Part shown: one piece after another, positions 10,237 through 30,856 of the stretch | Position numbering within the stretch: the stretch's first letter is position 1 | Layout of the letters: every line of letters begins with the position of its first letter | Source: Bacteroidia bacterium | Lineage (GTDB): Bacteria; Bacteroidota; Bacteroidia; SpSt-205 | Reading direction: 5' to 3' | DNA length: 36,279 bases | Assembly: GCA_026003235.1 (NCBI GenBank) | Contig: BPGW01000011.1 | Coordinates: 1-36,279 of the forward strand | The notes under the pieces: model-generated | What the model was told of the DNA's origin: nothing | What the model saw: the letters and a program-made list of their open reading frames with translations, nothing else | Databases searched by the model: none | Program-made: the position numbers and the translations under genes

Positions 10237-10308
10237 GCCATCGTAGCTCAGTGGCAGAGCACTTCCTTGGTAAGGAAGAGGTCGCCGGTTCGATCCCGGC
10301 CGATGGCT
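10237..10308 (+). tRNA. tRNA-Thr (GGT)
   Basis: A 72-nt cloverleaf: acceptor GCCATCG (10237-10243) pairs with CGATGGC (10301-10307), the D arm is GCTC/GAGC, the anticodon loop is TTGGTAA (anticodon GGT), the T loop is TTCGATC and the discriminator is T. CCA is not encoded. Confidence 0.95.
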
Positions 10309-10389
10309 CAGAAGCCCCCAAAAGACTCAGAGGGAAAAGGGGGATGTAGGGGCTCAAGCGGAGTAAAGGGCAAAGCTGACTCGGCCGCA
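10309..10389 (+). other. Spacer between tRNA-Thr and the tuf promoter
   Basis: No gene is visible in these 81 bases. Two short inverted repeats (AGCCCC at 10313-10318 with GGGGCT at 10349-10354, and alternatively five Cs at 10315-10319 with five Gs at 10339-10343) could fold after the tRNA. There is no T-run, so I do not call a terminator. Confidence 0.4.
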
Positions 10390-10419
10390 TTTGGAAGTGT
10401 GTGATTTTTTGTACCTTTG
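10390..10419 (+). promoter_or_regulatory. -33/-7 promoter of the tuf transcript
   Basis: TTTG (10390-10393), an 18-nt spacer, then TACCTTTG (10412-10419). It lies 11 nt before the tRNA-like element, the spacing seen for the real tRNAs in this window. Confidence 0.7.
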
Positions 10420-10430
10420 CCCCGCTTCTG

Positions 10431-10495
10431 GCCGTTGGGCTCGGGTGAGCGGTCCTCGCAAGGGGGCTTGGCCGGTTCGACTCCGGACGATGGCG
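10431..10495 (+). ncRNA. Degenerate tRNA-like element in the tuf 5' leader
   Basis: GCCGTTG (10431-10437) pairs over 7 bp (two G-U) with CGATGGC (10488-10494), the same 3' strand as tRNA-Thr. GCCGG / TTCGACT / CCGGA (10471-10487) makes a T arm with a canonical TTCRANY loop and four of five pairs. GCTC/GAGC (10439-10442, 10447-10450) forms a D stem with only a 4-nt loop. The remaining 20 nt (10451-10470) are too short for an anticodon arm plus variable loop and fold at best into a 4-bp stem with a tetraloop. It is therefore not a working elongator tRNA. It is either a tRNA-Thr relic or a tRNA mimic retained in the tuf leader. The tuf ATG at 10499 lies 3 nt after the expected discriminator base. 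Confidence 0.65.
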
Positions 10496-10498
10496 CTT

Positions 10499-11686
10499 AT
10501 GTCCAAGGAGGTTTTCGTACGTGATAAGGAGCACGTCAATGTGGGCACCATTGGCCACGTTGACCATGGTAAGACGACGCTGACCGCCGCTATCACCAAA
10601 GTCCTGGCGAAGCGAGGCATGGCTCAAGAGCGCTCCTACGATTCCATTGACAACGCTCCGGAAGAGCGGGAGCGGGGCATCACCATCAACACCGCCCATG
10701 TGGAGTACCAGACCGAAAAGCGCCATTATGCGCATATTGACTGTCCCGGGCATGCCGACTATGTCAAGAACATGGTTACCGGCGCAGCTCAGATGGATGG
10801 CGCTATTCTCGTGGTGGCCGCTACGGATGGTCCCAAAGCCCAAACCCGCGAGCACATTCTTCTTGCCCGGCAGGTAGGTGTGCCGTACATCGTGGTATTC
10901 CTGAATAAGGTAGACATGGTGGACGATGAAGAGCTTCTGGAGCTGGCGGAGATGGAAATTCGGGACCTGCTCAACTTTTACGGGTATCCGGGTGACACGA
11001 CCCCTATCATCCGAGGCTCGGCGTTAGGCGCGCTGAACGGCGACCCGAAGTGGGAAGAAAAAGTGCTTGAGCTATTGAACGTGCTGGATACCTACATTCC
11101 CACGCCTCAGCGTATCATTGATAAGCCCTTCCTGATGCCGGTAGAGGACGTGGTCTCCATCACCGGTCGGGGAACGGTGGTGACAGGGCGTATAGAGCGG
11201 GGCAAGATCAAGCTCAACGAACCGGTAGACATCGTGGGACTGCGGGAAGACAAGCTTACCTCCGTGGTGACAGGCATTGAGATGTTTCGCAAGCTTCTGG
11301 ATGAAGGGCAAGCGGGCGACAATGTGGGCCTTCTCCTGCGAGGTATTGACAAAGACCAAATCAAGCGCGGGATGGTGGTGTGCGCCCCCAACAGCGTAAC
11401 GCCCCATAAGCGCTTCAAAGCCGAGGTGTATATCCTCACCAAGGAAGAAGGCGGCCGGCATACCCCCTTCCAGACAAACTATCGCCCGCAGTTTTTCTTC
11501 CGTACGGCGGATGTGACAGGCACGATTAAGCTACCCCCTGACGTGCCGATGGTCATGCCCGGCGACAACGTCAGCATTGAGGTGGAGCTGATTTACCCCA
11601 TCGCCATGGAGAAAGGGCTCCGGTTCGCTATTCGCGAGGGGGGGCGAACGATCGGGGCTGGCCAAGTTACGGAAATTTTAGACTAA
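10499..11686 (+). CDS. tuf: Elongation factor Tu
   Basis: EF-Tu carries aminoacyl-tRNA to the ribosome as a ternary complex with GTP. The 395-residue length is normal. The G domain shows GHVDHGKTT (residues 19-27), the switch II motif DCPGHADY and the specificity motif NKVD. Domains II and III follow and end in [10 protein letters not shown]. The start is taken as ATG 10499 ([10 protein letters not shown]), the family N-terminus. An in-frame ATG at 10490 would add three residues, but it lies within the 3' acceptor strand of the upstream tRNA-like element. The gene has its own -33/-7 promoter. Its TAA stop is the first three bases of the next promoter's -7 element. I see no SD sequence. Confidence 0.97.
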
Positions 11687-11700: not shown

Positions 11701-11773
<73 letters not shown>

Positions 11774-11775
11774 CC

Positions 11776-11970
11776 ATGAAGACTCGTCTTGCGCAGTTGT
11801 GGAAGGAGTATGTGACGGAGTGGCGAGAAAAAGTGGAGTGGCCTTCCTTTCCCCAACTGGTGAGCACCACCATTGCGGTGCTGGTGGGAAGTCTCCTACT
11901 GGCTATCGTGATTGGCCTTATAGATCTATTGTTTAGCACTATCATGCGAGGGGTTTATTCGCTTTTTTGA
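11776..11970 (+). CDS. secE: Preprotein translocase subunit SecE
   Basis: A small inner-membrane subunit of the SecYEG channel. The 64-residue single-TM form is typical of most bacteria. It has an amphipathic N-terminal helix with the family motif EWREKVEWPSFPQL and one TM segment (about residues 33-55, TIAVLVGSLLLAIVIGLIDL). The ATG at 11776 shares its A with the CCA of tRNA-Trp, so there is no room for a ribosome binding site. The TGA stop shares its A with the nusG ATG. The position between tRNA-Trp and nusG is conserved in many bacteria. Confidence 0.93.
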   Translation: MKTRLAQLWKEYVTEWREKVEWPSFPQLVSTTIAVLVGSLLLAIVIGLIDLLFSTIMRGVYSLF

Positions 11971-29106: not shown

Positions 29107-29178
29107 GCCATCTTAGCTCAGTGGTAGAGCAGCTGATTCGTAATCAGCAGGTCGGCGGTTCGAATCCGCCAGATGGCT
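29107..29178 (+). tRNA. tRNA-Thr (CGT)
   Basis: Acceptor GCCATCT (29107-29113) pairs with AGATGGC (29171-29177), the discriminator is T, the anticodon arm is GCTGA-TTCGTAA-TCAGC (anticodon CGT) and the T arm is GGCGG-TTCGAAT-CCGCC. It starts 1 nt after tRNA-Val and ends 1 nt before the ATG of the cytochrome gene. Confidence 0.95.
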
Positions 29179-29179
29179 C

Positions 29180-30856
29180 ATGCGTTGGGGCCCGGGCCTT
29201 TTTGCCCTGGGCGTCTCTCTGTACCTTTCCTGTCACCCCCAAGAGAAGACGGCCCCTTCTCCGCACTACGTCGGGGATGCCGTGTGTCAGCGCTGCCACG
29301 CTGCCATAGCCCAGGCTTACGCCGCCACCTGGAAAGCGCGTTCTCTCCTCCCCGTCACACCCGACCTGCCTCGTATAGAGGACTTCCAGCAACCCCCCGT
29401 GTATGACCCCCACCGGGACTTCTACTATCGCGCCCGGTGGGAAGGGGATTCGTTGTACTTGTACGAGTATCGGTTGCGGGGCTCAGATACGGTGTACCTG
29501 CGGCGGGAACGGCTGGACTTTGTGGTCGGGTCAGGTCACCAAACGCGCTCTTACCTCTTGTGGCGAAATGGCTTTTTGTACGAGGCTCCTCTCACCTGGT
29601 ATGTTCGGGCGCGCAAGTGGGACTTGTCACCGGGTTATCACGGGGGACGCAATAGCCGTTTTGATCGGGAGATTGCGCCGGCTTGTTTAGCCTGCCATGC
29701 TCAGGGCACTCAGCCGGTTGCCTGGACCTACAACCGCTATGAGCAAGTGGGCGGGCCGCTGGGTTGTGAATCCTGTCATGGTCCTGGCAGCGCCCACGTC
29801 CAAAATCCCACTGACACCCTTTACCACTGGAGCCGCTGGCCAAAAGCCCGCCAAATGGACGTGTGTAGCCGCTGCCATCTGGAGGGCTTCACCGTAGAGA
29901 AGCGATCAGGTTGGAAGCCCGGTGACACCTTAGCGGCGTTTTATGCGGTGTTTTTGCCCCATCGGCCGGAGCTGGGCCAAGCCGGCATCGCTTCCCACGC
30001 GGAGCGGCTCCTGCGTTCTGCTTGCTACCAAAAGGGGGGCCTCACCTGCGCCACCTGCCACGCCCCCCATCCTGTGGGGGCCGTGCCTTCTTACGATCAG
30101 CGCTGCTTGAGTTGCCATACCGCTGGCTGCGCTAACCCTACCCATCCCCGTACGGGCTGTCCCACTTGCCACATGCCGAAGGGGGCTACCAGCGACATCC
30201 CGCACACGCAGTTTACGGATCACTACATTCGGGTGGTGGGGGCTTCGGCACCGAGGGATACCGCTCTTTCGCTGCGGCTGCTTTGTGCGACGGAAGCTGC
30301 ACCGGATTCGGCCTGCGTCGCCGAAGCCTACTTCCGCTGGTACGTGGAAGGGGAGGGGGGAAAGGAGGTGGGAGCCCTTGCGGAGCGGCTTTTGGAGCGG
30401 TGGGGGCCGCCTTTGGTGCTTGCTCAGCTCTACCTTTGGACGGGCCGCCCTGACAAAGCCCTTCCGTACGCCGAGCAGGCCCTGGCCCGTGATACCACGC
30501 TACGCACCCTGGAAACCCTGGGATACGCCTTAGAAGGGGTAGGGCAGGGGAAGCGGGCTTTGGCGGTGTGGGGGGAGCTGGCCCGACGCGCTCCAGCCCA
30601 TCCCGACGCGCCCTTCCGGCAAGCGATCCTCGGCTACCAGCAGGGCTACCTCTCTCCCGCTCAGGCCTATCGGTGGCTGGATAGCTTGTGCGCGGTTCAA
30701 CCTTGGAACCCCCAATACCACTACAACGCCGCCGTGCTGGCTTTGCAGCTAAGCCAGCACGCCCAGGCCCAGCGCCACCTCTCCGCCGCCCTTTCCGTCG
30801 ATCCCGACTACCCTCCAGCCCTGGCCCTCAAAAGGACGCTCGCTCTGCGCCGCTGA
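29180..30856 (+). CDS. Heptaheme c-type cytochrome with C-terminal TPR domain
   Basis: A 558-residue exported protein. The N-terminus MRWGPGLFALGVSLYLSCHP is a signal peptide; the Cys after YLS could be a lipobox, although Tyr at -3 is unusual. Seven CxxCH heme sites are present: CQRCH, CLACH, CESCH, CSRCH, CATCH, CLSCH and CPTCH, all before about residue 340. The opening YVGDAVCQRCH is typical of cytochrome c554-like multiheme proteins, and GCESCHGPGSAHV of the same superfamily. The C-terminal third (about residues 390-558) has TPR repeats (for example LYLWTGRPDKALPYAEQAL). The protein probably carries electrons in the envelope; its substrate is unknown. The ATG is 2 nt after the 3' end of tRNA-Thr, so there is no leader. 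Confidence 0.88.
   Translation: MRWGPGLFALGVSLYLSCHPQEKTAPSPHYVGDAVCQRCHAAIAQAYAATWKARSLLPVTPDLPRIEDFQQPPVYDPHRDFYYRARWEGDSLYLYEYRLRGSDTVYLRRERLDFVVGSGHQTRSYLLWRNGFLYEAPLTWYVRARKWDLSPGYHGGRNSRFDREIAPACLACHAQGTQPVAWTYNRYEQVGGPLGCESCHGPGSAHVQNPTDTLYHWSRWPKARQMDVCSRCHLEGFTVEKRSGWKPGDTLAAFYAVFLPHRPELGQAGIASHAERLLRSACYQKGGLTCATCHAPHPVGAVPSYDQRCLSCHTAGCANPTHPRTGCPTCHMPKGATSDIPHTQFTDHYIRVVGASAPRDTALSLRLLCATEAAPDSACVAEAYFRWYVEGEGGKEVGALAERLLERWGPPLVLAQLYLWTGRPDKALPYAEQALARDTTLRTLETLGYALEGVGQGKRALAVWGELARRAPAHPDAPFRQAILGYQQGYLSPAQAYRWLDSLCAVQPWNPQYHYNAAVLALQLSQHAQAQRHLSAALSVDPDYPPALALKRTLALRR

Follow-up and report, generated by a model that had tools for sequence, protein, structure and literature searches.

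A conserved tRNA-like structure abutting the start of tuf in a genus of Bacteroidia, a candidate bacterial t-element

The setting of the level of EF-Tu, which is among the most abundant bacterial proteins, is an old question. tRNA-like structures that are cut from longer RNAs have been described as the plant mitochondrial t-elements and as mascRNA (PMC11658184), and the substrates reported for RNase P include tRNA-like structures, riboswitches and mRNAs (PMC11143913). When a tRNA was placed ahead of an ORF, in vitro translation rose 2- to 6.3-fold, an effect that depended little on the 3' ACCA, and a double mutation of the D-loop-like GG brought yjdF-driven translation near background (PMC9142559). 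In addition, tRNA mimicry occurs in the operator of E. coli thrS, which is named in PMC9976931. We describe here a tuf leader that is under clear structural selection, mimics the class of ligands of EF-Tu and adjoins the start codon. Because this tRNA-like structure (TLS) resembles such a ligand and abuts the start, models of autoregulation, of processing and of ribosome recruitment predict opposite outcomes for it. No description of a tRNA-like tuf leader was recognised in the open-access literature, which is a limit of that search rather than proof of absence.

The locus lies in a window of 36,279 nt (the whole stretch of DNA that was analysed, contig 11 of the 2.06-Mb genome G000), and its features are collected in Table 1. 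An earlier note had read the leader between the promoter and the tuf ATG as an acceptor stem, a T arm with a TTCGACT loop and a D-like hairpin, with no 7-nt anticodon loop, and this fold was borne out, direct reading giving five Watson-Crick and two G-U pairs in the acceptor stem. The likeness to the upstream tRNA-Thr(GGT) was also found as claimed: the 3' acceptor strands are the same, the two elements start 194 nt apart, and in G000 the promoter and leader of both match closely. Neither intrinsic terminators nor sigma-70 sites were found between 10100 and 10600. The 3' acceptor strand of G000 contains a second in-frame ATG of tuf, and none was seen there in the other ten leaders of the genus. 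A canonical tRNA identity was rejected, since in G000 the TLS was called neither by ARAGORN nor by Rfam (RF00005) at the gathering score, was absent from the list of an RF00005 search up to E 10, and is missing the 5-bp anticodon stem and the 7-nt loop. Its best Rfam match at a lax threshold was tRNA-Sec (RF01852, 15.5 bits, E 0.78), an identity that was likewise rejected against a gathering score of 47. The folding energy of the G000 element was ordinary (MFE z = +0.39; 123/200 shuffles of the stretch 10424-10512, which includes 14 nt of tuf, folded as well), and it is the comparative evidence, not the single sequence, that lifts the TLS above chance.

Table 1. Positions in the window of the tuf leader, its parts and the tRNA genes discussed in the text
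Feature	Position	Strand	Remark
tRNA-Thr(GGT)	10237..10309	+	functional-looking; probable source of the TLS
tuf promoter	10390..10419	+	TTTG at 10390-10393, -7 box TACCTTTG at 10412-10419; Bacteroidota promoter type
TLS, acceptor to acceptor	10431..10494	+	64 nt; 57.0 bits, E 1.7e-11 with a covariance model built from 11 sequences that include this one
Acceptor 5' strand, GCCGTTG	10431..10437	+	pairs with 10488-10494
D-like hairpin, GCTC-GGGT-GAGC	10439..10450	+	GG in loop
Third hairpin, GTCCTC-GCAA-GGGGGC	10452..10467	+	at the anticodon-arm position, without a 7-nt loop
T arm, GCCGG-TTCGACT-CCGGA	10471..10487	+	four pairs plus G.A at 49-65
Acceptor 3' strand, CGATGGC	10488..10494	+	in-frame ATG at 10490
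Tail, GCTT	10495..10498	+	discriminator position 73 at 10495, then C74; 3' cut predicted after 10495
tuf (EF-Tu)	10499..11686	+	395 aa; ATG at 10499
tRNA-Trp	11701..11773	+	discriminator 2 nt before the secE ATG (11776); PF00584, residues 8-60
tRNA-Thr(CGT)	29107..29178	+	discriminator followed after 1 nt by the start ATG (29180) of a 558-aa protein

EF-Tu was searched for in 40 genomes (G000 and 39 relatives) and matched in 38, and 30 tuf loci were returned, 11 from the genus and 19 from outside it; G011, a genome of the same family that is 66% complete, stays outside the comparison of leaders, as its match covered residues 268-395 only. The TLS was found at the start of tuf in all 11 genus genomes searched, always on a common plan: -7 box, spacer, acceptor, D-like hairpin, variable hairpin, T arm, acceptor, discriminator, 3-4 nt, ATG. 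Between the -7 box and the acceptor lay 11 nt in ten members and 9 nt in one. The genus is divergent, with tuf DNA 76-82% identical and RpoB 75-83% identical in amino acids to that of G000. The T-loop read TTCGA[C/G]T in 11/11, the GG of the D-loop, G1-C72 and C74 were likewise present in every TLS, T75 in 10/11, and the T-loop stood 11-12 nt from the acceptor end. The D-like hairpin was paired in 43/43 cells, and the third hairpin varied in sequence and length from species to species with its pairing kept (3-9 bp with loops of 3-12 nt, as set by hand).

Covariation was counted on a hand-set alignment of the 11 elements, in which 91% of 233 cells were paired and 14 of the 22 pairs carried changes on both sides. 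The alignment held 40 double-change cells, as against 12.6 in shuffles, none of 500 of which reached 40, and 6-11 when the strands were slid. Of the seven acceptor pairs, five carried changes on both sides and five changed state on the tree, pairs 3 to 7 doing so 3, 4, 5, 5 and 4 times. This tree was built from eight proteins and replaced a tuf-only tree that had placed the outgroup inside the genus; several of its nodes are weak (supports 23-100%, five of nine below 75). When 3' acceptor strands were swapped between species, a test that is independent of the alignment and not corrected for kinship, the observed pairing of 127 exceeded a mean of 111.3, and 12 of 100,000 swaps were as high. The acceptors of the TLS vary and yet pair, whereas that of the real tRNA-Thr(GGT) was identical in 10/11 genus genomes (those in which it lay within the fetched stretch), which argues for selection on shape and not on sequence. 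A pairing of the pre-acceptor leader with the first codons was also considered and rejected (79 observed, mean 86.6, p 0.99).

With the 11 species combined, the region between the D and T arms folded better than shuffled versions of itself (Fisher P 3.7e-7); singly, four of the 11 had a fraction above 0.1. Unconstrained MFE folds at 37 C gave all four helices, with at least three expected pairs each, in 8/11 genomes; in the others, the register of the third hairpin was shifted (G002), the T arm was missing (G007), or both the D and the T arm were missing (G008). RNAalifold returned the cloverleaf on the hand-set alignment; from the raw MAFFT alignment it recovered the T arm, together with incorrect pairs. 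The median pair probability of the acceptor exceeded 0.5 in 8/11 genomes with 18 nt of coding sequence and in 4/11 with 60 nt, so that in the complete message other folds may compete with that of the TLS. Taken together, the leader is almost certainly a functional element that is selected for its tRNA-like fold. The selected property could in principle be another structural role: the leader could protect the 5' end from decay in the manner of a cap, sense temperature, or respond as a riboswitch to some ligand. In favour of such roles, the fold sits near the predicted transcript start (about 10424 in G000), the four helices form in most of the unconstrained folds, and the genus, judged by the sample names, consists of probable hot-spring bacteria and thermophiles. 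However, a plain hairpin would protect a 5' end, and none of these roles needs an invariant tRNA T-loop and D-loop GG, and we give this explanation only a small chance.

The main alternative offered by the earlier note was a plain decaying pseudogene. The element resembles tRNA-Thr in G000 and is not called as a tRNA, as would be the case for a decaying tRNA-Thr copy or an assembly error; nevertheless, it is present in 11/11 genomes at near-fixed distances on both sides, and acceptor pairs 3-7 changed state three to five times each while mostly remaining paired (68/73 acceptor cells). The covariation on the hand-set alignment and the acceptor changes on the tree refute a plain pseudogene, and decay or error of any kind is now highly improbable. 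Neither of the observations that the note had named as pointing to a local pseudogene was made within the genus, i.e., the stems were kept with compensatory changes, and at this position an intact tRNA was called by ARAGORN in none of the 11 genomes. The observation is right, and it concerns more than a single pseudogene. As for the origin, the TLS probably arose as a tRNA-Thr copy and then lost decoding, a descent made plausible by the best non-target matches of the covariance model, most of which are tRNA-Thr, and by the tRNA-Thr(GGT) found upstream of tuf in 19/19 loci outside the genus. The duplication proposed earlier is hence plausible on model scores that suggest homology, although the acceptor identity that had been taken as its mark is confined to G000, the acceptors of the other species being different. 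Degenerate tRNA copies also occur elsewhere in G000: on contig 9 (6465-8037; L002, 1-1573), next to a tRNA gene, two of them lie within a repeat of some 701 bases, at 19.4 bits each, and form a small array of tRNA pseudogenes.

The range of the element was then delimited by two kinds of search. An exact pattern matched 51 stretches among 84,980 species; eight were genus members with EF-Tu beside the match, and of the other 43, none contained EF-Tu as fetched and eight were ARAGORN tRNAs. The pattern is blind to the genus variants G007 and G008, and G000 or genomes near it may be left out. With the covariance model the tuf element ranked first in 11/11 genus genomes (49.7-69.5 bits), as is to be expected of a model built from those sequences. 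At E 0.01, 303 of 395 class genomes gave a match of some kind; at E 1e-8, five of 395 phylum genomes did so, the genome studied here among them, and the class and phylum sets overlapped in part. The best scores outside the genus were 47.1 and 49.1 bits, and those non-genus matches that were retrieved as loci, 17 in the class and 4 in the phylum, were ordinary tRNAs by ARAGORN, mostly tRNA-Thr; this check covered the best matches under strict filters, so that a divergent relative scoring like a tRNA could be missed. At the 19 tuf loci outside the genus the TLS plan was not seen at the tuf start. In all 19, the 600 nt upstream of tuf contained tRNA-Thr(GGT), which was the tRNA nearest to the gene in 18 and the second nearest in L056, and in a different family of the order (G012, L042) it ended some 21-23 nt short of the tuf ATG. 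The TLS is absent elsewhere as far as sampled. A TLS-like plan, in which the D-loop is short and the middle hairpin long, was seen in a Tannerella sp. MAG (L100, 2560-2635, minus strand); ARAGORN calls it tRNA-Ile, and EF-Tu is absent from that stretch.

In the earlier note, the preserved half was explained by EF-Tu itself, which when free could bind its own mRNA. In a sensor model of this kind, the protein would bind the acceptor/T half of the leader, stabilise the fold over the start codon and repress its own synthesis. Ribosomal proteins and ThrRS provide precedents, as they repress via mimics of their RNA ligands. The controlled gene here encodes a tRNA-binding factor, the discriminator position lies within 3-4 nt of the start codon in 11/11 genomes, the acceptor and T stems are conserved, the former with covariation, and the affinity of an operator may be lower than that of the true ligand. 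Among the T-stem pairs, EF-Tu affinity depends most on 49-65, 50-64 and 51-63 (PMC8219837); altered T-stem pairs accompany the EF-Tu-avoiding tRNA-Sec and cell-wall tRNA-Gly, and E. coli tRNA-Sec rejects EF-Tu through G49.U65 together with C7-G66 and C50-G64 (PMC9976931). An EF-Tu operator that keeps these three determinants was rejected, since in the TLS 50-64 was paired in 10/11 and 51-63 in 11/11, but 49-65 in 3/11, as against 30/30 G000 tRNAs (30 of the 40 above the cut-off; Fisher P 1.7e-6); it was also paired in 30/30 tRNAs of G007. In six of the eight unpaired cases the position was G.A. C50-G64 occurs also in the tRNA-Thr of the genus itself. Furthermore, the TLS is without a free, aminoacylated 3' end, and its D arm and elbow are invariant, parts that EF-Tu is not known to read. 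The statement that the preserved half is exactly the half bound by EF-Tu did not hold, given the state of 49-65 and the conservation of the D-like and third hairpins as well. What stood of the proposal is the fusion of a tRNA-like element with the tuf leader, kept throughout the genus; the part played by EF-Tu was weakened by 49-65, and sensing of EF-Tu, while possible, is unlikely and is not the explanation that we favour.

In the window, two further tRNAs stand directly before start codons (Table 1), and the 558-aa protein that follows tRNA-Thr(CGT) has cytochrome c and TPR matches. Among the best 30 tRNA loci of each of three genus genomes, 87 had 300 nt downstream, and in 25 of these an ORF of at least 60 codons started 0-6 nt after the discriminator, as against 0/59 in two class relatives (P 5.7e-7); besides 11701-11776 and 29107-29180 of the window, the loci are L001, L018, L020, L021, L029, L181-L204 and L265-L294. 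Pairs with secE, L25, dxr and a DUF2480-type gene recurred across the genus. Eight abutting proteins were chosen for Pfam analysis (seven from G000, one from G007), and seven contained a family, four of them matching from within eight residues of the start. Taken alone, G007 had ORF starts 0-12 nt after the tRNA in 11/27 cases, as against 1-5 at other offsets, and G000 in 8/30, no excess over ten other offsets (2-9/30). Promoters also abut start codons. The genus sequence examined amounted to 495 kb, most of it flanking tRNAs or the tuf operon (window, L001-L030, L160-L169, L175-L204 and L265-L294). In it, 50/355 sites of the -7 box TAnnTTTG, with orthologous sites counted apart, had the start ATG of a 100-codon ORF 3-9 nt downstream; the same spacing was found at 5/83, 3/153, 1/62 and 0/7 sites in other class sets, and control motifs in the genus sequence had an ATG within 0-9 nt at 1/143, 0/93 and 6/165 sites. 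These abutting boxes suggest leaderless messages, in which the genus is probably rich. The lineage thus seems to make many of them, some perhaps through tRNA cutting, while elsewhere in the phylum leaders seem to be the rule. In Flavobacterium johnsoniae, 87% of the predicted transcripts have leaders of more than 10 nt (PMC6847099), and the survey table entry for Bacteroidetes/Chlorobi, 1 (/37), 2.4, can be read as one of 37 genomes with predicted leaderless genes (PMC3160421).

The genus tRNAs that abut ORF starts and the promoters that abut ATGs are the basis for the reading that we favour, at somewhat less than an even chance, namely that the TLS is a bacterial t-element, i.e., a decoding-dead tRNA that would be cut by the maturation enzymes so that a near-leaderless tuf mRNA is freed. 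In 11/11 genomes it lies at the predicted 5' end of the tuf mRNA, between promoter and ATG, as the placement of a t-element demands; it has the shape of one, and homology to tRNA-Thr is suggested by the model scores. This reading is preferred to that of an EF-Tu sensor because the features kept (T-loop, D-loop GG, the T-acceptor stack, G1-C72 and C74) and those lost (the anticodon loop and the EF-Tu pair 49-65) fit better with what each of the maturation enzymes reads in a tRNA. C74 is suggestive at most, since T75 is also conserved and C74 is common in tRNA genes, being present in 29/30 of those examined in G000 and in 30/30 in each of two class relatives. In the proposed mechanism, a former tRNA would have lost decoding and been retained at the 5' end of the tuf message, as a module under selection for its shape. 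The folded TLS would cover the start region, so that tuf would be poorly translated from the uncut transcript; RNase P would trim the 5' end of the TLS, RNase Z or an equivalent 3' enzyme would cut after position 73, and the released mRNA, beginning 3-4 nt before the AUG, would be read as a leaderless message, with tuf output then tied to tRNA-maturation capacity. RNase P RNA is encoded in G000, above the cut-off. For RNase Z, 0/12 genomes passed the curated cut-off of 293 bits; nine of the ten other genus genomes had an end-to-end match of 262-288 bits, and G008 and G012 had weak matches only. In G000 itself the RNase Z match on contig 6 (124386-125280; L295, L296) falls into two adjacent pieces in different frames, which reflects an assembly error or a broken gene.

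The promoter alone could give a leaderless tuf message, so that formation of the 5' end does not explain why the TLS was retained, and some regulation must be added to the t-element reading. In one form of it, a lock and a sensor would be combined, tuf staying silent until the mimic is cut, with precursor tRNAs and free EF-Tu competing for the enzymes or for the mimic; we regard this as speculative, with little probability of its own. If it were true, the supply of EF-Tu would be set by the tRNA economy of the cell, and, together with the genes that start at tRNA 3' ends, it would mean that leaderless messages are made lineage-wide by tRNA processing. A different kind of regulation would be a cis-acting translation enhancer, in which ribosome binding by the L-shaped leader would increase initiation at tuf, as in the ON state of the yjdF riboswitch. 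The yjdF work shows that tRNA-shaped leaders can enhance translation (PMC9142559), the GG and the T-loop are invariant in the TLS, and the A-rich leader of the class relatives is gone, the mean A fraction from -25 to -1 being 0.18 in the 11 genus loci and 0.53 in the 19 others. Against this, the tRNA in the constructs described stood upstream of an enhancer element and a Shine-Dalgarno sequence (PMC9142559), whereas the stem of the TLS ends 4-5 nt before the AUG, in what would be the ribosome-covered region, and start-proximal structure tends to lower initiation (PMC6847099). Enhancement, though a live rival, is for these reasons rather improbable. In conclusion, the TLS has probably kept its shape to let tRNA-cutting enzymes, or other machinery that handles tRNAs, act on the tuf message, and the t-element reading would make it a chromosomal bacterial case of a decoding-dead tRNA retained as an mRNA module.

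When the locus is compared with known systems, the tRNA-tuf operons of the class relatives share the tRNA-Thr upstream of tuf, which is the probable ancestral arrangement, and they differ from the TLS leader in having an intact tRNA-Thr and an A-richer spacer. tufB of Salmonella is also controlled post-transcriptionally near the start codon, reportedly through competing stem-loops and translation speed (Brandis et al. 2016), without a tRNA mimic and in this respect unlike the TLS. The E. coli thrS operator resembles it in that tRNA-Thr is mimicked in the leader of a translation gene; that operator, however, mimics anticodon arms, for ThrRS, and it is exactly the anticodon arm that the TLS has lost. 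A yjdF riboswitch, of which Rfam holds a model, was rejected, since no yjdF match was obtained in Rfam up to E 10 and the long J1/2 site is missing. Both the yjdF/cis-tRNA leaders and the TLS are tRNA-related and lie upstream of a start codon; the D-loop GG and the T-loop, from which the elbow of yjdF is formed, are invariant in sequence in 11/11 TLS, where they may form such an elbow. yjdF differs in its purine-rich J1/2 ligand site and in sequestering the ribosome-binding site (PMC9142559), the corresponding linker of the TLS being 1-3 nt. The human mascRNA is tRNA-homologous and tRNA-shaped, lies at the end of a lncRNA, and is degenerate in the D stem and the anticodon region, and the plant mitochondrial t-elements are homologous to tRNAs, as the TLS probably is, and like it tRNA-shaped and located at an mRNA end (PMC11658184). 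The TLS, for which cutting is a prediction, differs from both in that it resides on a bacterial chromosome, under its own promoter and beside the start codon of tuf.
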